This document shows positions 46,293 through 64,000 of a stretch of DNA of 64,000 nt, in pieces. The stretch is taken from NCBI RefSeq assembly GCF_030814655.1, contig NZ_JAUSVK010000001.1, positions 1,817,501 to 1,881,500 of the forward strand, in the 5' to 3' direction. The DNA is from Labrys monachus. Lineage in GTDB: Bacteria; Pseudomonadota; Alphaproteobacteria; Rhizobiales; Labraceae. Every line of letters starts with the position of its first letter. The stretch's first letter is position 1. The position numbers were made by a program, and so were the translations under genes. Under the pieces are notes generated by a model. That model was not told where the DNA came from. It saw nothing but the letters and a program-made list of their open reading frames with translations, and ran no database searches.

Positions 46293-46453
46293 TTTATTTT
46301 GTGACATGTTTTGCCAACCCGCGTGCCGCGTCAAGCGGATAGTTGCATCTTTGTGCGTGATTTTTCGCTTTCTTGCTTGAGGGGTGGAGTTTGCTGGCAT
46401 AAAAGGGCAAAATTGATCAAAAAGTTGCGAAGCAAATTGGGAGGAACTGGGCA

Positions 46454-49982: not shown

Positions 49983-50042
49983 AGTTGCGCTTTCGGCTTC
50001 GCGGTCGAACCGATCCGCCATATATATCTCTTGATGGGTGTG

Positions 50043-50053
50043 CGGGATTCCCG
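50043..50053. promoter_or_regulatory. Palindrome before the BrnT-type toxin gene
   Basis: CGGGATTCCCG (5-bp arms around T), 10 nt before the toxin start. ATTCCC...GGGAAT (50694-50710) occurs again just after the antitoxin gene. An autoregulatory site for the HTH antitoxin is plausible. Confidence 0.35.
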
Positions 50054-50062
50054 TATTCATGC

Positions 50063-50350
50063 ATGAACGAACCAGCCGAGTTCGAATGGGATGATGTGAA
50101 GGCGGCGGCAAATAGAGCCAAGCACCACATCTCCTTTGAGTTCGGTGTTCGTATCTTTGAAGACGCGAATCGGATCGAGTTTGACGCATCGCGTCCCGGC
50201 GATGGAGAGATCCGCTTCAAGGCTGTCGGGCTCATCCAGGATCGCCTGTTCACGGTGGTCTTCACGCTCCGTGGCGACGTTTGCCGGATTATCTCGGCAC
50301 GTCGCGCCAACGCCAGGGAAGAACGCAGCTATGGCGATCGTCCGATATAG
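50063..50350 (+). CDS. brnT: BrnT-family ribonuclease toxin
   Basis: Small RelE-fold RNase toxin of 95 aa. The family pattern is clear: FEWDDVKAAANRAKHHISFE, D..RPGDGEIRFKAVGLIQDR, LFTVVFTLRG and RIISARRANAREERSY. In BrnTA modules the toxin cleaves RNA and is neutralised by the partner. ATG 50063 is internal to a longer open frame and starts at the family N-terminus. It overlaps the antitoxin gene by 20 nt. Confidence 0.9.
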   Translation: MNEPAEFEWDDVKAAANRAKHHISFEFGVRIFEDANRIEFDASRPGDGEIRFKAVGLIQDRLFTVVFTLRGDVCRIISARRANAREERSYGDRPI

Positions 50351-50684
50351 GCCCGGCCCGGCCCCGATCATCCTCTCCGGTGAGGACGAGGCGCGTCTCG
50401 ATGCCATGACACCCCGGGAAATCGAGCAAAACACGTTGGGTGATGCCGATAATCCCCCGTTGACTGACGATGAACTCGAACGAGGGCGCCTCGGCCGCTC
50501 GGTACGAAAGATTCGCGAGGCGACCGGGCTGAGCCAGGACAAGTTCGCCAAGCGTTTTCACATCAATCCCTCCCGGCTCAGGGATTGGGAGCAGGGACGG
50601 TTCAAGCCGGATTCGGTCGCTCTCGCTTATCTGAAGGTGATCGAGAAGAATCCGAAGGCCGTCGATGACGCGCTGACGGCCTGA
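50331..50684 (+). CDS. HTH antitoxin partner of the BrnT-type toxin
   Basis: Protein of 117 aa. A C-terminal XRE-type helix-turn-helix (IREATGLSQDKFAKRFHINPSRLRDWEQGR) follows an acidic N-terminal part. It differs from classical BrnA, a ribbon-helix-helix protein, so this is a BrnT toxin combined with a HigA/XRE-like antitoxin. The HTH domain should bind the module promoter, and the N-terminal part probably contacts the toxin. The 20-nt overlap supports coupled synthesis. Confidence 0.85.
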   Translation: MAIVRYRPGPAPIILSGEDEARLDAMTPREIEQNTLGDADNPPLTDDELERGRLGRSVRKIREATGLSQDKFAKRFHINPSRLRDWEQGRFKPDSVALAYLKVIEKNPKAVDDALTA

Positions 50685-50759
50685 TACGGCGGTATTCCCA
50701 CTGAGGGAATCCGTATGCGGGGTCGGCGCCCTACGACATGGAATGGACGGCCGGCTCGC

Positions 50760-52628
50760 CTATCGCACATGCTTGTAGACGGTCGTGCGCGACAATCCGA
50801 GCGTACGCGCGGTGACGGCGATGTTGCTGCCGGCGGTGGTATAGGCGGCGCGGATTTCCCGGCAACGGATCCGGTTGAGCGGGTGGCCGGCGCAGGCGTC
50901 GCAGGCCTCCTGGTCCTCCGCGTCGCCGGGGTCGAGGGCGTCCTCGTCGACGAAGGTCATGCGGCCGCGAAGATAGGCGCGCTGCAGCGTCGCCTGCAAT
51001 TCCCGGATATTGCCCGGCCACGGCCCTCGGCGCAGGCGCTCGATCGCGGCATCGGTGATCGCCGCCTCGGGCGCGATCGCCTGCATCAGGTGCCGGACCA
51101 CGGCGGCGAAATCCTGCCGCTCGCGCAGCGGGGGTAAAGCGAGGGTGAAGGCGTTCAAACGGAACAGCAGGTCGGCCCGGAACCGCCGCTCCCTGACCAG
51201 CGCGGCGAGGTCGGCATTGGTGGCCGATACGATCTGCACGTCGACCTTGCGGGTCTTCTGGCCGCCGACGGCGCGGATCTCCATGCTGTCGAGGAAGCGG
51301 AGCAGGACCGTCTGGGCCGGGGCCGGGATGTCGGCGACCTCGTCGAGGAACAGCGTGCCGCCGTCGGCGAGGCGGGCGAGGCCGGGCGCGCCGTCCTGGC
51401 GGGCATTTGTGAAGGCGCCGCGCTCATGGCCGAAGATCTCCGAGACGAACAGTGTCTCCGGCAGGGCGCCGCAATTGAGCGCGACGAATTCGCCCCGCCG
51501 GCCGCTCACCGCATGGACATGGCGCGCCATCAGCTCCTTGCCGGTGCCGGTCTCGCCGCAGATGTGGACCGGCATCCGCATCCGCGTCGCGTCGGCGAGG
51601 CCCTCCATCGTGCGGCGCAAAGCAGGATCGAGGCAGACGAAGCCGGGCGCGGCCGGCGGGGCGGCCGCCGGCGCCGGCCCGGGCGGGAGGCGCCCGCGCC
51701 CCGGCAGATCCGCCGCCGGGGCGCGGGCGCCGATCTGCCGGCAGACCATGAAGACGGCGCTGCCGGCCCGGTCGCGGATGCGCACCACGCCGCCGTCGAG
51801 CAGCCCGTCCATCGCTGCGCCGAAGCGGCCTTCGAAGAGATCCTCGAAATGGCAGCCGGCGGCGGCGGGAAGCCCGGCCAGCATGGCCTGGCCGGGGCGG
51901 TTGAGCGAGGAGACCGCGCCGTCGCGCGACACCGCGATCAGGCCGGCCGAGAGGGTATCGAGATATTCGGCGCGCGGATGGAAGGCGAAGATGAAGAGAT
52001 TCGACCGTTCTTGATAGATCAGTCCATTTTCGATCTGCGCCGCCGCCATCCGCACGAGGGCGTGGGTATGCTGCTGGCGGGCCTCGTGGGAGCAGGAGGC
52101 GTCGAGCAAGCCCACCAGCTGCCCGCCGGCATCGAGGATCGGCGCGGCCATGCAGCTGAGATGGCCGTGGCTGCGGAAATAATGCTCGCGCCCGTAGATC
52201 GCCACGGGCTCGCGCTGCCGGACGGCGAGCCCGAGGGCGTTGGTGCCCCGTTCTGCCTCGCCCCAGGCGCTGCCCGGAATGATGGAGCGGCCGCTGCGGC
52301 TGTCGGCGAAATGCTGGTCGCTGATGGTGTCCAGCACCACGCCGTCCGGATCGGCGAAGGCGATCAGGAAGTTCGATCCGGCGATCTGGGCATGCAGGAG
52401 CTGCATCTCGGCCAGCGCGAGCCTCCGAAGGCCGCTGTGCTCCTCGCGCAGGCGCTGCACCAGCGGGAAGGGAACGACGACGTCGCGCGGCTCGATGCCC
52501 GGATCGAGGCCGAGATCGCGGCAACGCTCCCAGCTCGAAGCGACGAGCGACGACAGCGCGCCGGACGGGATGCGCCGGCCCTCCTCCAGGGCGGAACGGG
52601 CACGCTCGATGTTCGACAGCGGCTGCAT
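50760..52628 (-). CDS. Sigma54-dependent AcoR-like transcriptional activator
   Basis: Bacterial enhancer-binding protein of 622 aa. The N-terminal part has the SSWERCRDLGLDPGIEPRDV motif and a GAF domain (about 80-205, IAGSNFLIAFADPDGV; GSAWGEAERGTNALGLAV). The AAA+ domain has Walker A GETGTGKE (358-365), Walker B GTLFLDE (424-430) and a Fis-type HTH at the C-terminus (SNIAVTARTLGLSRTTVYKH). The sigma54 contact loop reads GAFTNA (404-409), where GAFTGA is canonical. It faces the alcohol dehydrogenase and probably controls it and/or the monooxygenase operon; the inducer would be an alkane, ketone or alcohol. Confidence 0.93.
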   Translation of the reverse strand: MQPLSNIERARSALEEGRRIPSGALSSLVASSWERCRDLGLDPGIEPRDVVVPFPLVQRLREEHSGLRRLALAEMQLLHAQIAGSNFLIAFADPDGVVLDTISDQHFADSRSGRSIIPGSAWGEAERGTNALGLAVRQREPVAIYGREHYFRSHGHLSCMAAPILDAGGQLVGLLDASCSHEARQQHTHALVRMAAAQIENGLIYQERSNLFIFAFHPRAEYLDTLSAGLIAVSRDGAVSSLNRPGQAMLAGLPAAAGCHFEDLFEGRFGAAMDGLLDGGVVRIRDRAGSAVFMVCRQIGARAPAADLPGRGRLPPGPAPAAAPPAAPGFVCLDPALRRTMEGLADATRMRMPVHICGETGTGKELMARHVHAVSGRRGEFVALNCGALPETLFVSEIFGHERGAFTNARQDGAPGLARLADGGTLFLDEVADIPAPAQTVLLRFLDSMEIRAVGGQKTRKVDVQIVSATNADLAALVRERRFRADLLFRLNAFTLALPPLRERQDFAAVVRHLMQAIAPEAAITDAAIERLRRGPWPGNIRELQATLQRAYLRGRMTFVDEDALDPGDAEDQEACDACAGHPLNRIRCREIRAAYTTAGSNIAVTARTLGLSRTTVYKHVR

Positions 52629-52705
52629 GGATCCTCCTGGGATAGGCTGTTTTTGTTCAGGGAGCGCGGACGCTCCGTCCCTTGCGTCAGGTTTGCAGCA
52701 CCGGC

Positions 52706-52875
52706 TCCCTTCTCCCGGTCGGGACTCCGCATTTCCTTCGGAAATGCATGGGGTACCGGCAGGGGGATGAGGGCCTAAAACGTCGACGCGGATAGCTCGA
52801 TCGTCACGCTCGAACCGTCGAAGTTCAGACCCTCATTCGGCGCTGCGCGCCACCTTCTCCCGCACCGGGAGAAGG
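52706..52875. repeat. Paired hairpin repeat, family A copy 3
   Basis: The left module has CTTCTCCCGGTCGGGAC, GCATTTCCTTCGGAAATGC and GGGGGATGAGGG. The right module, inverted, has CCCTCATTCGGCGCTGCGCGCC and CCTTCTCCCGCACCGGGAGAAGG. It is the mirror orientation of the copy at 15430. Confidence 0.75.
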
Positions 52876-52977
52876 AAATCGCGTCGTTTTCTGCAGATCC
52901 GGCGCCCGGGGGAATTTCGCGCATGATAGCTTTCCCCTCAGTCTCCTCTTCTTCGCCGAAATGGCAATGACCAGAAT

Positions 52978-53007
52978 CTGGACAATGTCGTGAACAGCAT
53001 TGTCCAG
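52978..53007. promoter_or_regulatory. Upstream activator inverted repeat for the alcohol dehydrogenase
   Basis: Perfect 10-bp arms CTGGACAATG and CATTGTCCAG, 10 nt apart, 65 nt upstream of the -24 element. It is placed as an enhancer site for a sigma54 activator, most simply the divergent AcoR-like protein. Confidence 0.7.
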
Positions 53008-53071
53008 CCGCTTTACGCCTTCCCTAGACATCATGTTCCGCAACACATTGAAATGGCGCGATTTTCGCGGA

Positions 53072-53087
53072 TGGCACGCCGCGTGCA
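53072..53087 (+). promoter_or_regulatory. Sigma54 (-24/-12) promoter of the alcohol dehydrogenase gene
   Basis: TGGCACGCCGCGTGCA keeps the -24 TGGCAC, 5-nt spacing and -12 GTGCA (consensus TTGCA). It lies 51 nt upstream of ATG 53139. Confidence 0.75.
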
Positions 53088-53138
53088 GCATCTCCCGAAA
53101 ACAATCCGGGCATTCCGCCCGCTGCGGGAGAGAGCACC

Positions 53139-54191
53139 ATGAAGGCACAGGTCCTGAACCAGTATGACGAGACGCTCGGCGCCGACCGCTGGGTCACGCT
53201 CCAGGACGTTCCCGATCCCAGGATCGCGAAATCGACCGACGTCATCGTCCGCATCGGCGGCGCCGGGGTGTGCCGCACCGACCTCCACATCATCGAGGGC
53301 GTGTGGAAGCCGCATATGGATCCGACCGGCGACAGGCTGCTACCGCTGATCATGGGGCACGAGAATGCGGGCTGGGTCGAGGAGGTCGGCAAGGAGGTCG
53401 AGGGCATCAAGGTGGGCGATCCCGTGATCGTGCACCCGAAGATCTCGGGCGGCACCTGCCTCGCCTGCCGCCGCGGCTTCGACATGCACGGCCCCGGCAC
53501 GTTTCCGGGCCTCGACAGCAATGGCGGCTATTCCCAATATCTGTGCACGTCGGAGCGCAACATCGTCGCGCTGCCGCGCACGCTGGCGCCCAAGGACGTC
53601 GCGCCCTATTCGGATGCCGGCCTCACGGCCTATCGCGCCGTGAAGAAGGCGACGCGCCACCTGCTGCCGGGCGAGCGCTGCGTCGTCATCGGCGCCGGCG
53701 GCCTCGGCCATATCGGCATCCAGTGCCTGAAGGCGATGTGCGCCGCCGACATCATCGTCGTCGACAAGTCGGACGCCTCGCTGGCGCTGGCGGGCAAGGT
53801 CGGTGCCGACGAACTGGTCAAGGCCGATGGCAACGAGGTCGAGGCCGTGCTGGCGCTGACCGACGGGCAGGGCGCCGAGGCGGTGATCGACTTCGTCGGC
53901 GAGAAGGGAACCACGGCCAAGGGCCTCGCCATGACCCGGGCGATGGGCAGCTATTATGTCGTCGGCTATGGCGAGGACATCCGCGTGCCGACCGTCGACA
54001 TGGTCATCACCGAGAAGAACATCATCGGCAACCTCGTCGGCACCTGGGCGGAACTGGTGGAGCTGATGGCGCTGGCGGATCGCGGCCTCGTCAATCTCGC
54101 CACCGTCGAATATTCGCTCGCCGACGCCAACAAGGCGCTGCAGGACCTCAACGCCGGCAAGATCCACGGCCGCGCCGTCCTGATCCCGTGA
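53139..54191 (+). CDS. Zinc-dependent NAD alcohol dehydrogenase of the monooxygenase locus
   Basis: Medium-chain dehydrogenase of 350 aa. Catalytic zinc residues are in GAGVCRTDLHIIEG and IMGHENAGWVEEVG, and the Rossmann part starts VVIGAGGLGHIGIQCLKAM. The structural-zinc loop reads GTCLACRRGFDMHGPG, so only two of its four usual Cys remain. In propane-oxidising loci such enzymes oxidise 2-propanol to acetone, and that is the expected role here. It has its own sigma54 promoter. Confidence 0.9.
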   Translation: MKAQVLNQYDETLGADRWVTLQDVPDPRIAKSTDVIVRIGGAGVCRTDLHIIEGVWKPHMDPTGDRLLPLIMGHENAGWVEEVGKEVEGIKVGDPVIVHPKISGGTCLACRRGFDMHGPGTFPGLDSNGGYSQYLCTSERNIVALPRTLAPKDVAPYSDAGLTAYRAVKKATRHLLPGERCVVIGAGGLGHIGIQCLKAMCAADIIVVDKSDASLALAGKVGADELVKADGNEVEAVLALTDGQGAEAVIDFVGEKGTTAKGLAMTRAMGSYYVVGYGEDIRVPTVDMVITEKNIIGNLVGTWAELVELMALADRGLVNLATVEYSLADANKALQDLNAGKIHGRAVLIP

Positions 54192-54375
54192 GCGGACGAC
54201 GGCTCATCGGCTCGGCCTGCAGTCTTCGTGTCATCCCGGACGCGATGCGGCACTCAGTGACGCTTCGCAGATCCGGGATCGCCGGCCGAAAAGGGCGCTC
54301 TTGTCGTCTTGCGATCCCGTGTCTGCATCGCGCCACTGTGTGGCGCAATGCGCACGGGATGACGCAGTGCCTCTA

Positions 54376-54407
54376 TTGCGAAGCAACATAACAGTATTGC
54401 GCCGCAA
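54376..54407. promoter_or_regulatory. Two tandem TTGC-N3-GCAA activator sites
   Basis: TTGCGAAGCAA (54376-54386) and TTGCGCCGCAA (54397-54407) are 21 bp apart, two helical turns. The second extends to the perfect palindrome TATTGCGCCGCAATA (54395-54409). They lie 130-180 bp before the sigma54 promoter. Confidence 0.7.
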
Positions 54408-54415
54408 TATTTTCT

Positions 54416-54440
54416 CAATTTGCATCACTGTCGCAAATTG
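54416..54440. promoter_or_regulatory. Third inverted repeat upstream of the monooxygenase promoter
   Basis: Perfect 8-bp arms CAATTTGC and GCAAATTG, 9 nt apart. The inner bases TTGC...GCAA match the two preceding sites but with wider spacing. Confidence 0.6.
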
Positions 54441-54539
54441 AAACAGTCCATATCCCGAAAGACTCCGAGGGAGCGGCGATTTTCCGGGATATACGGTAGA
54501 ATAAAGCCTCAAACGTGCCGATACGACTGTTGTTCAAAC

Positions 54540-54555
54540 TGGCACGACGTTTGCA
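54540..54555 (+). promoter_or_regulatory. Consensus sigma54 (-24/-12) promoter of the monooxygenase operon
   Basis: TGGCACGACGTTTGCA matches the sigma54 consensus (TGGCAC-N5-TTGCA) at every defined position. Transcription would start about 12 nt downstream, giving a leader of about 295 nt before the hydroxylase start codon at 54864. Confidence 0.88.
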
Positions 54556-54663
54556 TTGCATATCCCAGAACAATGATGACTGGTCCGTCAGGGCACGCCA
54601 CGACAAGAACGAAGGGGAGGATGACCGGCTCGGGAGCATTGCATTCCATCGGCGCGCGAAGTG

Positions 54664-54700
54664 GTTTCCACCGGGATGTCATCCCGGGTTTTTGGGAAAC
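54664..54700 (+). promoter_or_regulatory. Terminator-like hairpin in the monooxygenase leader
   Basis: The stem CCGGGA-TGTCA-TCCCGG (54671-54687) is followed by GTTTTTG. Outer arms GTTTCC (54664-54669) and GGAAAC (54695-54700) can pair around it. It could attenuate transcription or simply stabilise the leader. Confidence 0.5.
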
Positions 54701-54863
54701 GGACCTTCGCTCTCCGCGAGCTCCCACGGTCGTTTGAAACCTTTGCCGATAGCAAGCGAGAGACCGCACCCCCCGCCGGGGCTGCGGTGCCCCATGCATC
54801 CGCGCCCTTCGGGGTACGGCGGAATATCGATGTGGACTTCGACCCGATGAGGAGATGGATAAG

Positions 54864-56534
54864 ATGTCAGGCACACTGACCCTCAACAAGATCACCGCCC
54901 AGCGCGGCATTTCGGTCGGCGAGGCGGCCAAGAAGATCGCCGATCTCGGCTGGAACCCGTCCTATGTCCAGGAAGCGATGACCTTCCCGACGGACTACAA
55001 GATCACCAAGGCGCCGAAGGACCCGATGAAGCAGGTCCTGCGCTCCTACTTCCCGATGCAGGAGGAAAAGGACAACCGCGTCTATGGCGCGCTCGACGCC
55101 GCCCTGCGCGGCGACATGTTCCGCAATGTGGAACCGCGCTGGGTCGAATGGATGAAGCTCTTCCTGGCGATCATCCCCTTCCCGGAAATCTCGGCCGCGC
55201 GCTCCATGGCGATGGTCGGGCGGCTCGCTCCCGGCGAGGACCTGCGCACCGGCTTCACCATGCAGATGGTCGACGAGTTCCGGCACTCGACGATCCAGAT
55301 GAACCTCAAGAAATGGTACATGGAGAACTATATCGACCCTGCCGGCTTCGACATCACCGAGGAGGCGTTCGGCAAATGCTACGCCACCACCATCGGCCGC
55401 CAGTTCGGTGAGGGCTTCATCACCGGCGATGCAATCACCTCGGCCTGCGTCTACCTGACCGTGGTGGCGGAGACTGCCTTCACCAACACGCTGTTCGTCG
55501 CCATGCCCTCCGAGGCCGCCCGCAACGGCGACTATGCGCTGCCCACCGTGTTCCTGTCGGTGCAGTCGGACGAAAGCCGCCATATCGGCAACGGCCATTC
55601 CATGCTGATGTCGATGCTGAAGGAGCCGGAGAACCACCTCCTGCTCGAGCGCGACATGCGCTACGCCTTCTGGCAGAACCACGCCATCGTCGATGCGGCC
55701 ATCGGCACCTTCATCGAATACGGCACCACCAATCGCGACAAGAACAAGGAATCCTATGCGGAGATGTGGCACCGCTGGATCTTCGAGGACTATTATCGCA
55801 CCTACATGCTGCCGCTGGAAAAATACGGCATCAAGATCCATCACGACGACGTCCAGACCGCCTGGAAGCGCCTGACGGAGAAGCATTACGTCCACAAGGT
55901 CGCGCAGTTCTTCTCGGTGGGCTGGCCGCTCAATTTCTGGCGCATCGAGGCGCAGACCGACAAGGACTTCGAGTGGTTCGAGCATAAGTATCCGGGCTGG
56001 TATGCGGAGTTCGGCGAATATTGGAAGTGGTACGAGAAGCTCTCGCATCGCGGCCAGACGGTGATGACCTTCAACACCGACACCGGCTATGTCTATCCGC
56101 ATCGCTGCTGGTCGAACCTGGTGCCGTGCCTCATCCGCGAGGACATCGTCACCGACGAGATCGACGGCCAGATCTACACCTTCGGGCACGAGATCGACCG
56201 CTGGACCGCGGTCGAGGCTTTCGCCGGCGAATATCAGGGCCGCCCGACCCCGGCGATGGGCCGCTTCAGCGGCCGGCGCGAATGGGAGAGCGTCTACCAC
56301 AATTGGGACCTGGCCGACGCCATCCAGGATCTCGGCTTCGTGCGCACCGACGGCAAGACCCTCATCCCGCAGCCGCATCTGCGCTTCGAGGACAAGGAGA
56401 TGTGGACCCTCGACGACGTGCGCGGCCATGTCCTCAAGAGCCCGCTGCTGACGCTGCGCGAGATGTCGCCCGAGCAGCGCGAGGCGCATCTGGCCGAATA
56501 CCGCAAGGGTTTCACCATCAACCCCTGCCACTGA
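54864..56534 (+). CDS. prmA: Soluble diiron monooxygenase hydroxylase large subunit (Prm/Mim type)
   Basis: Catalytic alpha subunit of 556 aa of a propane/acetone/phenol-type binuclear iron monooxygenase. Expected diiron ligands are all present: E108 (PFPEIS), E138 and H141 (DEFRH), E203 (VAETAF), E237 and H240 (DESRH). The C-terminal half has PLEKYGIKIHHDDVQTAWKR and FYEVGWPLN-like SVGWPLNFWRIE typical of these subunits. ATG 54864 is preferred over 54855 because GGAG sits at the correct distance. The exact substrate cannot be fixed: propane, acetone and phenol groups share this architecture. Confidence 0.94.
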   Translation: MSGTLTLNKITAQRGISVGEAAKKIADLGWNPSYVQEAMTFPTDYKITKAPKDPMKQVLRSYFPMQEEKDNRVYGALDAALRGDMFRNVEPRWVEWMKLFLAIIPFPEISAARSMAMVGRLAPGEDLRTGFTMQMVDEFRHSTIQMNLKKWYMENYIDPAGFDITEEAFGKCYATTIGRQFGEGFITGDAITSACVYLTVVAETAFTNTLFVAMPSEAARNGDYALPTVFLSVQSDESRHIGNGHSMLMSMLKEPENHLLLERDMRYAFWQNHAIVDAAIGTFIEYGTTNRDKNKESYAEMWHRWIFEDYYRTYMLPLEKYGIKIHHDDVQTAWKRLTEKHYVHKVAQFFSVGWPLNFWRIEAQTDKDFEWFEHKYPGWYAEFGEYWKWYEKLSHRGQTVMTFNTDTGYVYPHRCWSNLVPCLIREDIVTDEIDGQIYTFGHEIDRWTAVEAFAGEYQGRPTPAMGRFSGRREWESVYHNWDLADAIQDLGFVRTDGKTLIPQPHLRFEDKEMWTLDDVRGHVLKSPLLTLREMSPEQREAHLAEYRKGFTINPCH

Positions 56535-56640
56535 GCCGATCCCTCGCCGAAAGGCATGCGGGGCCGGTCCGCCGGCTCCGCACCGCCATCCCATCATCGC
56601 CTGTCGTTTCGAAATCCTGAGATTCCGGGGAGGCTCCCGC

Positions 56641-57690
56641 ATGGGCGCGACCAATACCGTTCGGCTGCATCCGGTCGGCGTCGAGTTCGAGGTCGAGGAG
56701 AACGAGACCGTGCTCGAAGCCGCCTTCCGCCAGGGCATCGCCCTGCCGCATGGCTGCAAGGAGGGGCAGTGCTCGGCCTGCAAATGCATTCTCACGGACG
56801 GCGAGATCGAACTGAAGAAATATTCGACCTTCGCCCTCAACGAGATGGAGCGCGGGCAGGACCATATCCTCCTGTGCCGGACGCTGGCCTATTCCGACCT
56901 CGACATCGAGCTCCTCAACTATGACGAGGAGCTCCTCTCGAAATCCATCCCGGTCAAGACCATCGAAGGCACGGTCACGGGCGTCATCGATCTTACCCAC
57001 GATATCCGGCGCCTCGAGATCTCGCTCGACCAACCTCTGAAATTCTGGGCGGGACAATATGTCGACATCACGCTCCCGGGGGCAGAGGCGCTTACGCGTT
57101 CGTTTTCCATGGCAAATACGCCGGGCGAAAGCGAAAGGCTCGCCTTCATCATCAAGAAATACCCGAACGGACGCTTCTCCTCAAAGCTCGACGGGGAACT
57201 CACTCCCGGAACGCGACTCCGCATCAAGGGACCCTACGGAACCTGCTTCCGACGGGAGAACCGAAACGGAGCGGTGATCCTGGTCGGCGGCGGCTCGGGC
57301 ATGTCGCCCCTGTGGTCGATCCTCCACGACCACATCGCTTCAGGCGAGCAGCGGCCGGTCTATTTTTTCTACGGCGCCCGGACCCGCAATGATCTGTTCT
57401 ATCTCGACCGTCTTGCCGAGATCGCGGCGCAGAACCCCGATTTCACCTTCGTGCCCGTTCTCTCCCACGCCGGTGACGACGGCGATTGGCAGGGTGAGAA
57501 GGGTTTCGTCCACGAGGTGGTGGGAGCGCATCTGCGCCGTCTTGGGCTCGGCGAGGACGTCGACGTCTACGCCTGCGGGCCGGCGCCGATGATCGAGGCG
57601 CTGACCCCTGTCCTGAACATGAACGACGTCGAGGCGGAACGAACCTTCTTCGACAAATTCACGCCGGCCCCGGCCGAAGTGCCGGCGTGA
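56641..57690 (+). CDS. prmB: Monooxygenase NADH reductase component
   Basis: Electron-transfer protein of 349 aa. The N-terminal plant-type 2Fe-2S ferredoxin domain has Cys39, 44, 47 and 79 (HGCKEGQCSACKC...LLCRT). The FAD domain carries RSFSMANTPGE and the NAD domain VILVGGGSGMSPLWSIL, ending YACGPAPMIEAL. It passes electrons from NADH to the diiron hydroxylase. It is second in the operon, 106 nt after the large subunit. Confidence 0.94.
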   Translation: MGATNTVRLHPVGVEFEVEENETVLEAAFRQGIALPHGCKEGQCSACKCILTDGEIELKKYSTFALNEMERGQDHILLCRTLAYSDLDIELLNYDEELLSKSIPVKTIEGTVTGVIDLTHDIRRLEISLDQPLKFWAGQYVDITLPGAEALTRSFSMANTPGESERLAFIIKKYPNGRFSSKLDGELTPGTRLRIKGPYGTCFRRENRNGAVILVGGGSGMSPLWSILHDHIASGEQRPVYFFYGARTRNDLFYLDRLAEIAAQNPDFTFVPVLSHAGDDGDWQGEKGFVHEVVGAHLRRLGLGEDVDVYACGPAPMIEALTPVLNMNDVEAERTFFDKFTPAPAEVPA

Positions 57691-57736
57691 GGAACGACAT
57701 CCTCCAGAAGTCCGAAGACCAGCAAGGGAGTTGATC

Positions 57737-58807
57737 ATGAGCACCGTAGAGACCAGCCCGGTGAAATCGGGCGCCGCCGGCTCGGCGATATTCGCCGATT
57801 CAGACAGCCGGAAATACCGCTATTTCGAGCCGCGCAGCAAGAGGGCGACCCATTACGAGGACGTCACCGTCGACGTCCAGCCCGATCCGGAACGCTACCT
57901 CATCCAGAACTGGATCATCTCCTTCTCGAACGGGAAGGGGGCCTACAACAAGGACAACACCCAGGCGCTGAGCTCCAACTGGCACGCCTTCCGGGCGCCG
58001 GACCAGGAGTGGGAGCGCACCCATTACCAGCGCCAGTCGAAGATCGAGGCGATGGTGCAGTCGGTGATCGCCAATGGCCGCAAGGCCGGCGCCCCCAAAT
58101 CCTTCGACAAGGCCTGGGTCAAGGTCCTGCAGAACCATCTGGGAGCCTGGAAGCATGCCGAGTTCGGCCTGGGTACCTCGCTGATGCAGGCCCAGCGCTA
58201 CGGCTACACTCAGATGATCAACAATGCGACGCTGACCAACGCGTCCTACAAGCTGCGCCTCTCCCAGGACATCACCCTGTATCTCGCCGAGATCGGCATG
58301 GACATTCCCGGCTTCGACGACGAGGCGGGCAAGCGGACCTGGCTGGAGGACAAGGGCTGGCAGGGCACGCGGGAAGCGATCGAGACCATCATGGGCTCGA
58401 CCGACTATCTGGAGCAGTATTTCGCGATCAACATCGTGTTCGAGCCGCTGGTCGGCGAGCTGTTCCGGTCCGGCTTCCTGATGCAGGTCGCCTCCTCGAA
58501 CGGCGACTTCATCACGCCGGCCGTCATCTCCGCGGCGGAGGCCGATTACGAGCGCAACCTCGCCAACGCCATCGACCTGTTCCACCTGCTGGTCAACGAC
58601 GCCCAATACAGCGACCACAACCGCAAGCTGTTCCAGGGCTGGGTCGACCGGCATGCGGCCCTCGCCGCGACCGCCGCCGCGGGCCTGCAGCCGATCTGGT
58701 CGCAGCCGCACTCCAAGCCGGTGCAGTTCGTCGATTCCCGGGCGAATGCCGTCGAACGCACCAAGAAGATTCTCGGCGAGCTCGGGCTCGAACTTCCCAA
58801 GGAGTGA
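57737..58807 (+). CDS. prmC: Hydroxylase small subunit of the soluble diiron monooxygenase
   Basis: Beta subunit of 356 aa of the ferritin-like hydroxylase. It lacks the EXXH metal pairs, as expected, and has the scaffold stretches KYRYFEPRSKRATHYEDVTV, SSNWHAFRAPDQEWERTHYQ and AEFGLGTSLMQAQRYGYTQM seen in beta subunits. ATG 57737 follows GGGAG by 6 nt. It pairs with the large subunit to form the active dimeric core. Confidence 0.93.
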   Translation: MSTVETSPVKSGAAGSAIFADSDSRKYRYFEPRSKRATHYEDVTVDVQPDPERYLIQNWIISFSNGKGAYNKDNTQALSSNWHAFRAPDQEWERTHYQRQSKIEAMVQSVIANGRKAGAPKSFDKAWVKVLQNHLGAWKHAEFGLGTSLMQAQRYGYTQMINNATLTNASYKLRLSQDITLYLAEIGMDIPGFDDEAGKRTWLEDKGWQGTREAIETIMGSTDYLEQYFAINIVFEPLVGELFRSGFLMQVASSNGDFITPAVISAAEADYERNLANAIDLFHLLVNDAQYSDHNRKLFQGWVDRHAALAATAAAGLQPIWSQPHSKPVQFVDSRANAVERTKKILGELGLELPKE

Positions 58808-58812
58808 AAATC

Positions 58813-59184
58813 ATGTCCGTTGCTTCCAGGACCTCGTCGAACCAGAACATCTTCCAGAAAATGGGCGATCTCGTCTTCAGCCAGACGATCTCGCACCAGT
58901 GCGGCGTCACCATGAACGACAGCGTCGAGGCGCGCGCCATCGCCGAATTCATGGGCCAGAAGCCCAATGTGACGATCACCTACCAGCCTGCCCTGATCCG
59001 CATCGACGGCGAAGGCAAGCTCGTCTTCAAGATGGACGAGATCAGCGAGATCCTCGGCAAGGAAATGACCGCCGAGATCTTCGAGGTCAACACGTCCACC
59101 CATTACGGCCGCATGGTCCGCGTCGACGACAACACGGTGACGCTGTTCGGCGACATGGACGAGATCCGCGAATACATCGAGTAG
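58813..59184 (+). CDS. prmD: Monooxygenase coupling (effector) protein
   Basis: Small regulatory protein of 123 aa of the MmoB/PrmD family. It binds the hydroxylase and couples NADH oxidation to substrate oxidation without cofactors. Characteristic stretches are VEARAIAEFMGQKPNVTITY, ALIRIDGEGKLVFKMDEISE and a closing MDEIREYIE. It begins 5 nt after the small subunit stop. A strong hairpin follows, separating it from the amidohydrolase. Confidence 0.93.
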   Translation: MSVASRTSSNQNIFQKMGDLVFSQTISHQCGVTMNDSVEARAIAEFMGQKPNVTITYQPALIRIDGEGKLVFKMDEISEILGKEMTAEIFEVNTSTHYGRMVRVDDNTVTLFGDMDEIREYIE

Positions 59185-59208
59185 TCCCGGCCGTCTCTCC
59201 CGGAGCCT

Positions 59209-59249
59209 GGGGCAGGGCCGCGGCAGCGGCCGCCGCTCTGCCCCCTTTT
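59209..59249 (+). terminator. Strong hairpin with T-run between coupling protein and amidohydrolase
   Basis: GGGGCAG (59209-59215) pairs with CTGCCCC (59238-59244), followed by CTTTT. An inner stem GGCCGC/GCGGCC lies between them. This is the most terminator-like structure in the operon and may partly uncouple accessory genes from the four enzyme subunits. Confidence 0.65.
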
Positions 59250-59315
59250 CCCGTCTTCGTGTTTCACGCGCCGCGGCGCCGCCGGACATCCGCCGCCCCC
59301 ATTTCGGAGACCACC

Positions 59316-60338
59316 ATGTTCAAGACCCCCTCTGGCGAAGAGATCTTCGTCGTCGACGGCCACACCCATTTCTGGGATGCGAGCCCGGAGAACCAGCGCA
59401 ACGTCCATGGCAAGCAGTTCATTGAGTGCTTCTACGCCTATCACAAGGCGCTGAGCCCCAAGGAACAGCTCTGGCCGCTGCCCCAGTTCGAGAAATACAG
59501 CGCCGAGCAGATGTATAACGACCTGTTCGTCGACGGTCCCGACGACATGGCGATCGTCCAGTCGACCTATCTGACCGAATTTTACAAGAACGGCTTCAAC
59601 ACGATCGACCGCAACGCCGAGATCGCCCGCAAATACAAGGACCGCTTCATCGTCAACGGTTCGTTCGACCCCCGCGACGGCGAACGTGCGCTCGAATACA
59701 TCCATTACATGAAGGAAACCTTCGGCATCAAGGGCGTGAAGCTCTACACCGCCGAGTGGAAGGGCGATTCCCGCGGCTGGAAGCTGAACGACCCCGGCGC
59801 CTATCGCTGCTTCGAGCTGTGCGAGAAGCTTGGCATCACCAATGTCCACGTCCACAAGGGCCCGACCATCATCCCGCTCGACAAGGACGCCTTCGACGTC
59901 CACGACGTCGACCACGCCGCCACCGATTTCCAGGGCCTCAACTTCATCGTCGAGCATTGCGGCCTGCCGCGCCTCGACGATTTCTGCTGGATCGCAGTGC
60001 AGGAGACCAATGTCTTCGGCGGCCTCGCCGTGGCGTTGCCCTTCATCCACAGCCGCCCGCGCTATTTCGCCGAGGTGATCAGCGAGCTTCTGTTCTGGGT
60101 CGGCGAGGACAAGATCCTGTTCGGCTCGGACTATGCGATCTGGACGCCGCGCTGGCTGGTGGAGAAGTTCTGGGCCTTCGAGATCCCCGAGGACATCAAG
60201 CAGGAGCGCGGCGTCGACCTGACGCCGGAAGCCAAGCGCAAGATCCTCGGCCTCAACGCCGCCCGGCTCTACGGCATCGACATCGAGAGCCAGAAGGCGA
60301 AGCTGTCGGGCGAGCCCGTCGCCGTGGCGGCGGAGTGA
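59316..60338 (+). CDS. Amidohydrolase-family (Amidohydro_2) protein
   Basis: TIM-barrel metal hydrolase of 340 aa. Metal-ligand candidates are HxH in VVDGHTHFWDAS, the histidines of VHVHKGPTIIPLD and FIVEHCGLPRL, and the Asp in ILFGSDYAIWTPRW. Genes of this type follow prmABCD in several propane-oxidising bacteria, but their function is unknown. Hydrolysis or decarboxylation of a product or inhibitor, or a non-enzymatic role in hydroxylase assembly, are both open. It overlaps the next gene (TGATG). Confidence 0.87.
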   Translation: MFKTPSGEEIFVVDGHTHFWDASPENQRNVHGKQFIECFYAYHKALSPKEQLWPLPQFEKYSAEQMYNDLFVDGPDDMAIVQSTYLTEFYKNGFNTIDRNAEIARKYKDRFIVNGSFDPRDGERALEYIHYMKETFGIKGVKLYTAEWKGDSRGWKLNDPGAYRCFELCEKLGITNVHVHKGPTIIPLDKDAFDVHDVDHAATDFQGLNFIVEHCGLPRLDDFCWIAVQETNVFGGLAVALPFIHSRPRYFAEVISELLFWVGEDKILFGSDYAIWTPRWLVEKFWAFEIPEDIKQERGVDLTPEAKRKILGLNAARLYGIDIESQKAKLSGEPVAVAAE

Positions 60339-61129
60339 TGGCGATGGGCGCCTCCGTGCGGACGGACCGCGTGGCCGAGGTCTGGGCGCGGCTCGGCGAG
60401 GTGACGGATCCCGAACTCGACGAGCCCGTCACCGATCTCGGCTTCGTCGAGACGGTGGCGGTCGACGGGGAGGGCGGGGTCGACGTGGTCTTCCGCCTGC
60501 CCACCTATTGGTGTTCGGCGAACTTCGCCTTCCTGATGGCCGACGACATGCGCCTGGCGGTGTCGTCGCTGCCCTGGGTCCGGGCGGTGCGCCCGCAGTT
60601 GCAGGACCACATGGTCGCGGCCGAGATCAACCGGGGGGTGCGGCTCGGCCAGTCCTTTGCGGAGGCGCTCAAGGATTTCGCCGCCGGCGAAACGCTCGAC
60701 GAGGTCCGGGAGAAGTTCCGGCGCAAGGCCTTCGAGCGCCGCCAGGAGGCGGTGATCCTGGCGCTGCGCGCGGCGGGGCATGACGACGCGGCGATCTGCG
60801 GCATGAGCCTCGCCGCCTTCGACCGCGCCGATCTCGGCGAGGCCGAGGGCGGCTACCAGAAGCCGCGCTACCGGGCCCTGCTGGTCGCGCGGGGCCTGGC
60901 GGGCGAGCGTGCCTTCGTCACCTATAACGGCCGCCCGATCGCGCCGCACGAACTCCCGGCCTATCTCCAGCGGCTCAGGGCGGTGCGCATCAACATGGAG
61001 TTCAACAGCGTGCTGTGCCGGGGGCTCCTGGATGCGCGCTACAAGGAGATCGATGCCGATTTCGGCCTTGCGTGCGGCAGCGGCTGCACGCGGCATGCGC
61101 CGGCCGACGCCATTCGTGAAAGCGCGTGA
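60338..61129 (+). CDS. MIP18/DUF59-domain protein (metal-sulfur assembly factor-like)
   Basis: Protein of 263 aa. An N-terminal MIP18/PaaD-like domain has EVTDPELDEPVTDLGFVETV and RLPTYWCSANFAFLMADDMR with a conserved Cys. The C-terminal part is of no recognised family and carries three further Cys (LCRG, FGLACGSGCTRHA). Related proteins help build iron-sulfur or iron sites, so it is a candidate metallation factor for the diiron or 2Fe-2S component; that is inference from family and location. Its start overlaps the amidohydrolase stop. Confidence 0.8.
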   Translation: MAMGASVRTDRVAEVWARLGEVTDPELDEPVTDLGFVETVAVDGEGGVDVVFRLPTYWCSANFAFLMADDMRLAVSSLPWVRAVRPQLQDHMVAAEINRGVRLGQSFAEALKDFAAGETLDEVREKFRRKAFERRQEAVILALRAAGHDDAAICGMSLAAFDRADLGEAEGGYQKPRYRALLVARGLAGERAFVTYNGRPIAPHELPAYLQRLRAVRINMEFNSVLCRGLLDARYKEIDADFGLACGSGCTRHAPADAIRESA

Positions 61130-61154
61130 ACGACTGTGCAGCAACGACCGCGCA

Positions 61155-61303
61155 GCCCCTCATCCTCACCTTCTCCCCGCATGCGGGGAGAAGGAGCGGC
61201 AGGCGTCGTGAATCGATCCGCGAGAAGCGAGGCCGGCCGGCATTTCTCGACGTCGACGTCCCCTCTCCCCGCTTGCGGGGAGAGGATAGAGGTGAGGGGC
61301 AGC
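61155..61303. repeat. Paired hairpin repeat, family B copy 4
   Basis: The left module is CCTTCTCCCCGCATGCGGGG and AGAAGG after CCCCTCATCC. The right, inverted, is CCCCGCTTGCGGGGAGAGG with GGTGAGGGGC. It separates the DUF59 gene from groEL within the likely operon. Confidence 0.75.
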
Positions 61304-61384
61304 GTCACCCAACCGATCTGAACTGAGAATGACGGGACCGGCCCCTGCCGTCCCCAAGACGTGAAATCCAAGGGAGTGAAAGCC

Positions 61385-63016
61385 ATGCCGAAGATCCTGT
61401 TGCACGATGACGAAGCCCGGCGAGCATTGGCGCGGGGCGTGCAGAAGCTGGCCAGGGCGGTCGAGCCCACGCTCGGTCCCAAGGGCATGAACACCATGGT
61501 CGACCGTCCGATCGGCACCCCGATCGTCTCGCGCGACGGCGTCACCATCGCCTCCGAGATCGAACTGCCCGACCGCTTCGAGAATATGGGCGCCCAGGTG
61601 GTGCGTGAGGTCTCCATGCAGACGAACGAGGTCGCCGGCGACGGCACCACCACGGCGATGGTGCTCGCCAATGGCCTGATCCAGGGCGGCGTGGCGGCGC
61701 TCGAGCGCGGCGCCAAGGCGGTGGACCTGTGCAAGGGCATCGACATGGCGGTCGAACTCGTGGTCGAGACCCTGCGCAACTCGGCCATCGCCGCCTCGGA
61801 CCGCAAGACCCTGCAGGCGGTGGCGACCATCGCCGCCACGGATGCCCATCTCGGCGGCCTCGTCGCCGAGGCGGTCGAGCGCGTCGGCCGCAACGGCATC
61901 ATCAGCTCGGATTACGGACTGACGACCAATACCACGCTGGAGGTCGTCGAGGGCATGTCGTTCGACCGCGGCTATCTCTCCCACCATATGGTGACGGATG
62001 TCGAGAAGATGGAGGTCGTCCTCGACGAGCCCTTCATCCTGCTCACCGACCTCAAGATCATGGCGCCCGCCGAGCTCGCGGGCATCCGCAAGGCGGTTGC
62101 CGAGACGGGCCGGCCGCTCGTCATCGTCGCCGAGGAGATCGCCCCCGACGTGGTGATCACCCTGCTCGGCAACGGCAATCGCGGCAAGGTGCTGGTCGTC
62201 CACCCGCCGGAATACGGCCATTGGCGCAAGGCAATGATGGACGACCTCGCCATCATCACCGGCGGGCGCGTCATCGCCCGCGATCTCGGCGGCCGGCTCG
62301 ACCAGGCCGGCCTCGCCGATCTCGGCACCGCCCGGCAGGTTCGCTCCAGCGCCCGCGAGACGGTGATCATCCGCGGCGGCGGCGACGAGGCGGCCATCGC
62401 CGCCCGCCGCCAGCAGGTCGCCAGGCAATATGACCTCGCGCCCCCGAACATCGAGCAGGACAAGCTGAAGGAGCGCCTCGCCAAGCTCTCCGGCGGCTCG
62501 GCGGTGATTCTGGCGGGCGGCGTGACGCCGGTCGCCCAGAAGCGGACGATCCAGCTGATCGACGATGCGCTCAGCGCCACGCGCGCCGCGGCGGAAGAGG
62601 GCATCGTACCCGGCGGCGGCACGGCGCTCGCCCAATGCGCGGCGATGGTGACGAAGACGCTCGGCAACATCAACGGCGATTTCGGCGTGGGCATCCGCCT
62701 CGTGCGCGAGACGCTGTCGCGGCCGGCGGCCTTCATCGCCCGCAATGCCGGCCATGACGCGGACGCCGTGGTAGCCGACCTCCTGAAGGCGCCGCCCGGC
62801 ACCGGCTTCGACGCCGCCAAGGGAGCCTTCACCGACATGGTCGCCGCCGGCATCGTCGACCCCGTCCGCGTCACCACGGCGGCCCTGCGCAACGCCGCCT
62901 CGGTCGCCACGCTGGTGCTGACCACCAGCACGCTCGTCGTCGACATACCCGAATTCTCCGATCCGACCGCCGGCCCGGCGCTGGGCGGCGGCGCCGAAAA
63001 GCTCGGCAGAGCGTGA
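61385..63016 (+). CDS. groEL: GroEL paralogue dedicated to the monooxygenase
   Basis: Type I chaperonin of 543 aa. ATP-site residues are kept: TLGPKGMNTMVD, SRDGVTIASEIE, the GDGTTTAMVLA loop and DDALSATRAAAEEGIVPGGG. The C-terminus ends ALGGGAEKLGRA and lacks the GGM repeat. Propane, acetone and phenol monooxygenase loci of mycobacteria and proteobacteria carry such paralogues (MimG/PrmG), which are needed to fold the large subunit. ATG 61385 follows GGGAG; no groES gene is adjacent, so it must use the housekeeping GroES or none. Confidence 0.92.
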   Translation: MPKILLHDDEARRALARGVQKLARAVEPTLGPKGMNTMVDRPIGTPIVSRDGVTIASEIELPDRFENMGAQVVREVSMQTNEVAGDGTTTAMVLANGLIQGGVAALERGAKAVDLCKGIDMAVELVVETLRNSAIAASDRKTLQAVATIAATDAHLGGLVAEAVERVGRNGIISSDYGLTTNTTLEVVEGMSFDRGYLSHHMVTDVEKMEVVLDEPFILLTDLKIMAPAELAGIRKAVAETGRPLVIVAEEIAPDVVITLLGNGNRGKVLVVHPPEYGHWRKAMMDDLAIITGGRVIARDLGGRLDQAGLADLGTARQVRSSARETVIIRGGGDEAAIAARRQQVARQYDLAPPNIEQDKLKERLAKLSGGSAVILAGGVTPVAQKRTIQLIDDALSATRAAAEEGIVPGGGTALAQCAAMVTKTLGNINGDFGVGIRLVRETLSRPAAFIARNAGHDADAVVADLLKAPPGTGFDAAKGAFTDMVAAGIVDPVRVTTAALRNAASVATLVLTTSTLVVDIPEFSDPTAGPALGGGAEKLGRA

Positions 63017-63164
63017 TCGACGGCGGCGATGTCGCAACGGGATACTGCCCCGGGGTCGCCGGATGAGGTAGAATGGCTGGATGCGGAGCTCCGGGTCCGG
63101 CGGAAAAGAGGCGGCTGACAAGCCTCGGGATCGGCAACCGGCCGCAGAATGGGAGGAGGACGAC

Positions 63165-63659
63165 ATGGTCCACATCATCTCCAAGCGCGATGGACCGCGA
63201 AAGGAAGACGTCGAGATCAGGAGTTTTCTCGACCGCAACCGCGCCACGATCGACGGCCTCGCCGATCGGCTCACCGGCGGGGCCTGGCGCGAGATGCGCA
63301 ATCCCAAGCCGCCGCAGCAGCCCGATCCTTCGGGAACCCTGTGGTTCACGCCGCCGAGCCGCCCGCAGGAGGCCGAGCCCTATGTGCGCATCAGCCTGAA
63401 CGGCCGGGTGGTCGTCGCCGATCTCGCCACCGGCCGCCAGCTCCAGTTCCTCGGTGCCGTCGCCGGCAGGGGGGAGGGGCGGCATTTCGCCCTCGCGACG
63501 CGAGAGAACGGCTTCTTCGAGCCGATCGAGGCGGAGGCGGGCTGCGCGCTCGCCGATCTCGACGGTGTCCTCCTGCCGGACGGCGAGGCGGAGGACATGC
63601 TGAAGCAGGAGATCGCGGTCCGGCTCGGCCTGGCGCCGGCGCGGGAGGGCGCCGGGTGA
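63165..63659 (+). CDS. Uncharacterised protein of the monooxygenase locus
   Basis: Protein of 164 aa with no recognised family, start fixed by GGGAGGAGGACGAC before ATG 63165. It is soluble, with charged N-terminal MVHIISKRDGPRKEDVEI, a proline-rich section (NPKPPQQPDPSGTLWFTPPS) and a beta-rich middle (RISLNGRVVVADLATGRQLQ). No signal peptide. It lies between the GroEL paralogue and the second activator gene, so a regulatory or assembly role in the same system is possible. Confidence 0.7.
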   Translation: MVHIISKRDGPRKEDVEIRSFLDRNRATIDGLADRLTGGAWREMRNPKPPQQPDPSGTLWFTPPSRPQEAEPYVRISLNGRVVVADLATGRQLQFLGAVAGRGEGRHFALATRENGFFEPIEAEAGCALADLDGVLLPDGEAEDMLKQEIAVRLGLAPAREGAG

Positions 63660-63729
63660 GGCCGTCATGGCCCGAGACGACAGCTACCCGGCGCCGCCGG
63701 CCGGTGATCCCGCAAATTCGAGGTGTCCG

Positions 63730-64000
63730 ATGATGAAGCAGGGGTTCGCGCCGAGCTCGCCTTTTCAGGGCGGATGTGTTCCCGACGGCCTCGGCGATGC
63801 GGAAGCGGATCAGGGACCTCTCTATGACGAGCGGGAGACCATCAGGGCCTGGGAGACCTTCCTGACGCGCGGCGACGAGGCGGGAAGCGTGGCGGTGCGC
63901 AGCGTGATCGAGCGCTCCTGGGAGCGCAGCGCCCGGCTCGGCGTGGACGCGCGGGGGCGCGGCTCCAATGTGCTGGCTGATCCGGACCGCCTCTACGAAT
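63730..64000 (+). CDS. Probable second sigma54-type activator, N-terminal part (cut by window edge)
   Basis: The first 90 codons of a larger protein are visible. The stretch ETIRAWETFLTRGDEAGSVA, then VIERSWERSARLGVDARGR, matches the SSWERCRDLGLDPG segment of AcoR-like activators such as the one at 50760. Only the N-terminal portion is in the window, so the AAA+ domain is not confirmed. ATG 63730 is used; ATG 63733 is an alternative. Confidence 0.7.
   Translation, partial: MMKQGFAPSSPFQGGCVPDGLGDAEADQGPLYDERETIRAWETFLTRGDEAGSVAVRSVIERSWERSARLGVDARGRGSNVLADPDRLYE

Follow-up and report, generated by a model that had tools for sequence, protein, structure and literature searches.

A conserved sigma-54 promoter and a probable multi-input control region upstream of a prm-type monooxygenase operon in Labrys monachus

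The sequence at 54540-54555 is strongly supported as the conserved sigma-54 promoter of an operon for a propane/acetone-type monooxygenase. It probably forms part of a multi-input control region, in which the sigma-54 promoter would be combined with a UAS activator site, PhaR boxes and a folded leader. The region would have three layers of control. Comparison of sequences shows the promoter, a UAS block around 54415-54445, TGC-RNY-GCA boxes upstream of it, and a covarying hairpin in a conserved leader; the regulators that would act on the DNA (the MimR-type activator encoded at 63667, and PhaR) we infer. An earlier note on this DNA had described the promoter together with three phased upstream sites, as expected for an activator array on one DNA face. 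It is partly confirmed. The observation was sound and the promoter is real and conserved, but the repeats appear to be of mixed purpose, the array of three sites is not supported, and the stretch also contains a leader RNA that the note did not mention.

The window, meaning the whole 64-kb stretch of DNA that was analysed, comes from a genome of 6.92 Mb in a single contig. Two of the 397 genomes used for comparison (G121 and G175) belong to the same genus. The genes at the locus, with domains assigned by Pfam except for the MimR-type activator, are as follows.

50760 to 52628, minus strand: AcoR-type sigma-54 activator (GAF and AAA+ domains)
54855 to 56534, plus strand: prmA/mimA-type monooxygenase large subunit (PF02332)
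56641 to 57690, plus strand: reductase subunit (Fer2, FAD and NAD domains)
57731 to 58807, plus strand: small hydroxylase subunit (PF02332)
58813 to 59184, plus strand: MmoB/DmpM coupling protein (PF02406)
61361 to 63016, plus strand: GroEL-like chaperonin (PF00118)
63667 to 64000, plus strand: MimR-type sigma-54 activator of 707 aa, continuing past the window to 65790 as seen in L003

The gene order 3′ of the control region is therefore large hydroxylase, reductase, small hydroxylase, MmoB-type protein, amidohydrolase, GroEL-like protein and activator. All components of a mim/prm operon are present (both hydroxylases, reductase, coupling protein and GroEL-like gene), and by its domain content the operon is of the mim/prm type. 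An annotated plasmid of Caballeronia zhejiangensis has the identical order of subunits, amidohydrolase, GroEL and a sigma-54-dependent Fis family regulator. Actinobacterial clusters are reported to combine mimABCD, groEL and mimR (PMC8394569), and the present locus resembles these mimABCD/prmABCD clusters in grouping four monooxygenase subunits with a GroEL-like gene and a regulator gene. It differs from them in being alphaproteobacterial and in having a long leader, whose 5′ domain (model R1, below) was not found in the two Rhodococcus plasmid loci searched.

The elements of the control region referred to below are these.

54376 to 54386, plus strand: copy 1, TTGCGAAGCAA, PhaR-box-like, with a central GAA that breaks the RNY pattern
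54397 to 54407, plus strand: copy 2, TTGCGCCGCAA, which includes the PhaR core TGC-RNY-GCA at 54398-54406
54415 to 54441, plus strand: third inverted repeat, perfect, TCAATTTGC-N9-GCAAATTGA, with 9-bp arms
54429 to 54445, plus strand: predicted MimR-type 17-bp site TGTCGCAAATTGAAACA (TGT-N11-ACA), 111 bp before the TGG, placed by the geometry in relatives
54540 to 54555, plus strand: sigma-54 -24/-12 promoter TGGCACGACGTTTGCA, from consensus match and position kept in relatives
54552 to 54560, plus strand: TGCATTGCA, which fits TGC-RNY-GCA and overlaps the -12 element

The claim that the promoter fits the -24/-12 consensus fully is borne out. TGGCACGACGTTTGCA has no mismatch to TGGCACGNNNNTTGCW, its GG and GC lie 12 bp apart within TGGCACG-N4-TTGCW, and the window has no second exact match. 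The whole genome contains nine exact matches, against none for the backwards control pattern, and carries one rpoN gene. The position of the element is kept in relatives: it lies 301-395 nt 5′ of the prmA match in 18 of the 21 prmA-bearing genomes found among the 397 (own genome included), scored at 10 or more over 12 fixed positions, GG and GC being mandatory, and 254-395 nt 5′ of prmA in 71 of 80 named loci, a set that partly overlaps the first. Twelve loci have no promoter call (L009, L022 and L023 in the first set, and nine in the second). A looser search gives near-matches in six of these, and the sole hit in L023 is at -777. Transcription is predicted to start at about 54566. The box TGCATTGCA over the -12 element may be a chance match; by eye it is absent from L005 and L053. 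A ATATCCCGAAA/TTCCGGGATAT repeat is also present at 54450-54492 and 54560-54570, with its third arm just 3′ of the promoter, and by eye it is absent from L005.

The upstream repeats are where they were described to be. TTGC-N3-GCAA occurs twice exactly 21 bp apart (copies 1 and 2), and the third, related inverted repeat is present with perfect arms. In the local first-order Markov model, two or more copies of TTGC-N3-GCAA in a 175-mer have P of about 1.5e-5, and the window has three copies against 0.68 expected, a number reached by 2 of 100 shuffles. Another TTGCGAAGCAA, identical to copy 1, is found at 46425-46435. The third repeat alone is weak evidence, since any perfect repeat with 8-bp arms and a spacer of 3-20 bp has P of about 0.04 in 175 bp. 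Further upstream, between adh and the boxes, 54230-54363 is a 134-bp imperfect palindrome of two 67-nt arms, 75% complementary without gaps, which is REP/MITE-like.

It is quite improbable that a single sigma-54 activator occupies all three repeats on one face of the DNA. In favour of it are the 21-bp distance between the two exact copies, the third TTGC/GCAA repeat, the distance upstream, which is normal for sigma-54 activators, and the recurrence of the 21-bp spacing in L059. The phasing is nevertheless good for copies 1 and 2 only. The repeat centres are at 54381, 54402 and 54428, and the second interval, at 26 bp, is about 2.5 turns, which puts the third repeat half a turn off. Across the group of 12 promoters to which the window belongs, the distance from one TGC-N3-GCA box to the next is 21 (window), 40, 14, 14 and 21 (both L059), 14, 50 and 50 bp, so that the 21-bp spacing recurs once and is no general rule. 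A one-face array of three like sites was rejected on the 21/26 spacing and the variable spacing in relatives. In addition, the dyads of relatives are 17 bp long against 11 bp for the palindrome of copies 1 and 2, phasin promoters have boxes of the same type as these two copies, and the UAS block overlaps the third repeat.

This block, of the type TTTTGC...TGTCGCAA, is conserved in the Labrys/Bradyrhizobium group, being found in Bradyrhizobium, the window and Labrys G050. Many other loci have TTACA/TGTAA repeats, with a 17-bp dyad TGTAA-N7-TTACA near 91 bp before the TGG. Ranking 17-bp dyads succeeds in the TGTAA-type loci but gives no clean result in the window's group, and the predicted site at 54429-54445 is an imperfect dyad with four of six outer pairs. 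The relatives' 17-bp paired half-sites, some 90-110 bp 5′ of the -24 element, are like the UAS of NtrC/AcoR-type activators. They are unlike the general picture of such UAS in that the prm half-sites differ between groups together with the activator helix.

The UAS type appears to go with the DNA-reading helix of the MimR-type activator. For MimR-type activators adjoining prm, 45 loci could be typed on both sides by pattern: the helix SRPTLYR occurs with TGTAA-N7-TTACA in 36, SR(A/S)TLYRK occurs with the TGTCGCA block in nine (one of them Caballeronia), and crossed combinations do not occur. Some genomes count twice among the 45, under two locus names (for example L004/L058 and L013/L084), and few independent changes underlie the agreement. 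At 26 more loci the helix could be typed and the UAS was classed as 'other' (17 with SRP, and also L055, L057 and L061 of the window's group). Eight named Bradyrhizobium loci carry the UAS block (L061 in a variant form), and no activator other than the MimR-type was found in the DNA fetched for them. Of the two activators named in the earlier note, the one at 63667 (given there as 63730) thus fits better than the AcoR-type activator at 50760, both because the UAS type goes with the 63667-type helix and because these eight loci have the block without another sigma-54 activator in the DNA fetched. It is likely, from these comparisons, that the 63667 protein is the activator of the prm promoter.

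The 50760 activator was considered as the prm regulator and found less likely. Its helix, SRTT[VIL]YKH, is nearly constant in loci of both UAS types (exceptions are VHKH in L069 and SRNTVY in L042 and L110), and the alcohol dehydrogenase gene adh at 53139, from which the activator gene points away, has a sigma-54-like element and a repeat of its own. The 50760 protein likely controls adh rather than prm. The element before adh is:

53072 to 53087, plus strand: second sigma-54-like element TGGCACGCCGCGTGCA, with one mismatch

Beside it, within 52978-53087, is a CTGGACAATG-N10-CATTGTCCAG repeat. Inspection by eye of the regions 5′ of adh in 14 AcoR-type loci gave CTG[AG]ACAG in 10, the window having CTGGACAATG.

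The boxes 5′ of the UAS block recur in relatives. Counting TGC-N3-GCA in the UAS regions of the window's group gives 19 boxes, compared to 2.2 expected, spread over 11 of the 12 promoters. This and the other chance expectations for boxes and repeats were obtained with first-order Markov sequences, the genomes are related and not independent of one another, and the 12 promoters, like the set of 35 below, were chosen from 101 loci after the boxes had been noticed by eye. The group includes the window and the Ancylobacter loci L055 and L057, which were placed in it by activator helix. The middle of the box is RNY in 18 of the 19 (binomial 2e-10, assuming an independence that the boxes do not have), and the sole exception is copy 1 of the window. 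An early view that copy 1 is unconserved was dropped; unaligned counting gave the box type in 11 of the 12 promoters. Other arrangements are also in excess in this group, namely TGC-N6-GCA (7 vs 2.1), TGC-N10-GCA (10 vs 2.2), TGC-N12-GCA (5 vs 2.2), TGC-N11-TGC (10 vs 2.7) and GCA-N3-TGC (12 vs 2.2), an excess for which the tandem boxes and the third repeat are in part responsible.

For PhaR of B. diazoefficiens the consensus TGCRNYGCASMA is reported, deduced by combining DNase I footprints of the phaP1 and phaP4 promoters with the sequences of six further promoters (PMC6201568). Two PhaR boxes are described in the phaP1 promoter of this species (PMC6201568, PMC10888616), and a looser box NGCN(3)GC[GA]N(3) has been given, tandem boxes being bound with higher affinity (PMC10888616). 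PHB nearly eliminates PhaR binding in vitro in a gel shift (PMC6201568). Because of this published consensus, phasin genes were examined. The count covered 32 of 46 phasin places in 13 genomes (14 were left out, 13 without a locus plus L167), and their upstream regions contain 41 boxes against 7.35 expected, in 22 of the 32 regions, with 39 of the boxes RNY. Box spacings in phasin promoters are 18-22 bp in 11 of 19 cases and 29-32 bp in four. The window's own genome has a phaR gene and three phasin genes, one with two boxes 19 bp apart and one with none (the third is outside the count).

Copies 1 and 2 thus look like candidate PhaR docking sites, being of the box type of the PhaR consensus core and of phasin promoters. 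Copy 2 satisfies the core TGC-RNY-GCA. Copy 1 fails at RNY, and would be a weak or degenerate box. They share the core with the PhaR boxes reported for phaP1 and phaP4 of B. diazoefficiens (PMC6201568, PMC10888616), but differ in lying 5′ of a sigma-54 enhancer region, in the tail and in the imperfection of copy 1. The SMA tail of TGCRNYGCASMA is not matched, copy 2 having ATA and copy 1 ACA by eye; the published list of PhaR targets includes some ACA tails (PMC6201568).

Another TGC-type regulator may bind the boxes in place of PhaR, without relation to PHB. We consider this unlikely. It would account for the tails that depart from the PhaR consensus, and it is favoured by the set of 35 prm promoters with TGTAA sites, which has no clear excess of TGC-N3-GCA (4 vs 2.1) and has instead TGC-N3-TGC (31 vs 2.8 expected), a different element. 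The boxes of the window's group nonetheless share with phasin promoters both the core and the RNY bias, and occur in tandem as they do there. With PhaR as the preferred regulator, the lack of a clear excess in the 35 promoters means that PhaR input would be limited to the window's group. The boxes are not generally frequent: the window has seven TGCRNYGCA matches vs 8.4 expected, TTGCRNYGCAA stands at 14 places across the genome vs 18 for the control, and there is no such box in the 3.2-kb phaR locus. A strict genome search for tandem TGC-RNY-GCA gives five places (control 2), including a phasin promoter. It misses the prm locus because it demands RNY in both boxes and copy 1 is not RNY. Mesorhizobium and related loci (such as L093 and L124) have TGC-N3-TGC(G/T)AA pairs about 22 bp apart, 5′ of the UAS.

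Between the promoter and prmA is a conserved leader with the following parts.

54567 to 54854, plus strand: conserved leader, about 290 nt
54573 to 54628, plus strand: 5′ domain with hairpin and CAAGAACGAAGG block, used for model R1
54610 to 54615, plus strand: CGAAGG, 5′ strand of a conserved long-range helix
54740 to 54745, plus strand: CCTTTG, 3′ strand of this helix, inside the ACCTTTGCC block

The near-invariant AAGAACGA[AG]GG is found in 68 of the 73 leaders compared, and 71 have ACCTTTGCC intact or with a single change. Such constancy, together with an ordinary folding energy for the whole leader (z -0.28), is what would be expected if the leader were conserved as DNA, with sites for a downstream regulator, or as a small open reading frame. 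There is little likelihood of this, given how the paired positions vary. In the alignment of 29 leaders there is a six-pair hairpin just 5′ of the block, and for every one of its pairs some rows have both bases changed. Double changes number 39 cells compared to 13.9 in shuffled alignments (reached by none of 500), and covariation is 0.613 against 0.256 shuffled, slid versions giving 0.202 or less. These 29 come from 39 thinned leaders; seven of the other ten were left out for long or odd loops (L006, L007, L010, L014, L015, L066, L077), and L058, L061 and L090 were also left out. Realignment to 34 rows restores L058, L061, L090, L014 and L089 (the same record as L015), while the other five stay out, and gives 30 double changes vs 11.3 (none of 500 shuffles), 75% paired, with covariation of 0.326 vs 0.170 shuffled and at most 0.149 when slid. 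Restoring the five leaders weakens the signal but keeps it.

The strands of the long-range helix, which appears in the window's own predicted fold, also vary together: the 73 leaders have CGAAGG:CCTTTG in 56, CGAGGG:CCCTTG in eight and CGAAGA:TCTTTG in two. Of the remainder, two lack the first strand, and in five the pattern picked up a variant or an earlier, different sequence. CCTTCG at 54704 is an alternative partner for the helix. A small open reading frame was dropped on inspection by eye, in which no start codon or frame common to the leaders was seen.

Model R1 is single-copy in the genome (7.3e-9, the next match being at 0.1). At E 0.001 with strict filters it has matches in 13 prmA genomes out of 21, the 376 remaining genomes give no match, and every match is 5′ of prmA; the remaining eight prmA genomes have no match at this threshold. 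Against 36 sources, 22 match at E below 0.01, all before prmA. Nothing better than E 1.6 was obtained in eight plasmid loci of more distant taxa, no match is listed for L040-L043, and L026 and L073 give E 0.16 and 0.89. A search of 50000-64000 with Rfam 15 (E up to 5) gave four matches, none overlapping 54566-54854.

Taken together, these results suggest the following model. The 63667 MimR-type activator would bind the UAS block, at the predicted site 54429-54445, and by looping would drive RpoN polymerase at 54540-54555. The PHB sensor PhaR would bind copy 2, and perhaps copy 1, and would make prm expression responsive to carbon storage; it would most likely act as a repressor or anti-activator, although the sign is uncertain. 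The leader RNA would start near 54566, fold, and adjust translation or stability of the mRNA. Among the best matches listed in literature searches, in a collection with few subscription papers, none connects prm/mim operons with PhaR, sigma-54 or a leader RNA. We propose tentatively, and as rather less than probable, that the leader is an undescribed family of structured cis-regulatory RNA specific to alphaproteobacterial prm operons and that the Labrys/Bradyrhizobium promoter is in addition wired to PhaR.

If true, the oxidation of short-chain alkanes or acetone in soil alphaproteobacteria would be tied to carbon storage, and gas-hydrocarbon oxidation would be set jointly by an activator, the carbon store and an RNA leader. 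The prm loci would also offer a natural set of sigma-54 activators in which the DNA-reading helix varies together with the enhancer sites, and would add a candidate RNA family, with covariation and an exclusive gene association, that is directly testable.
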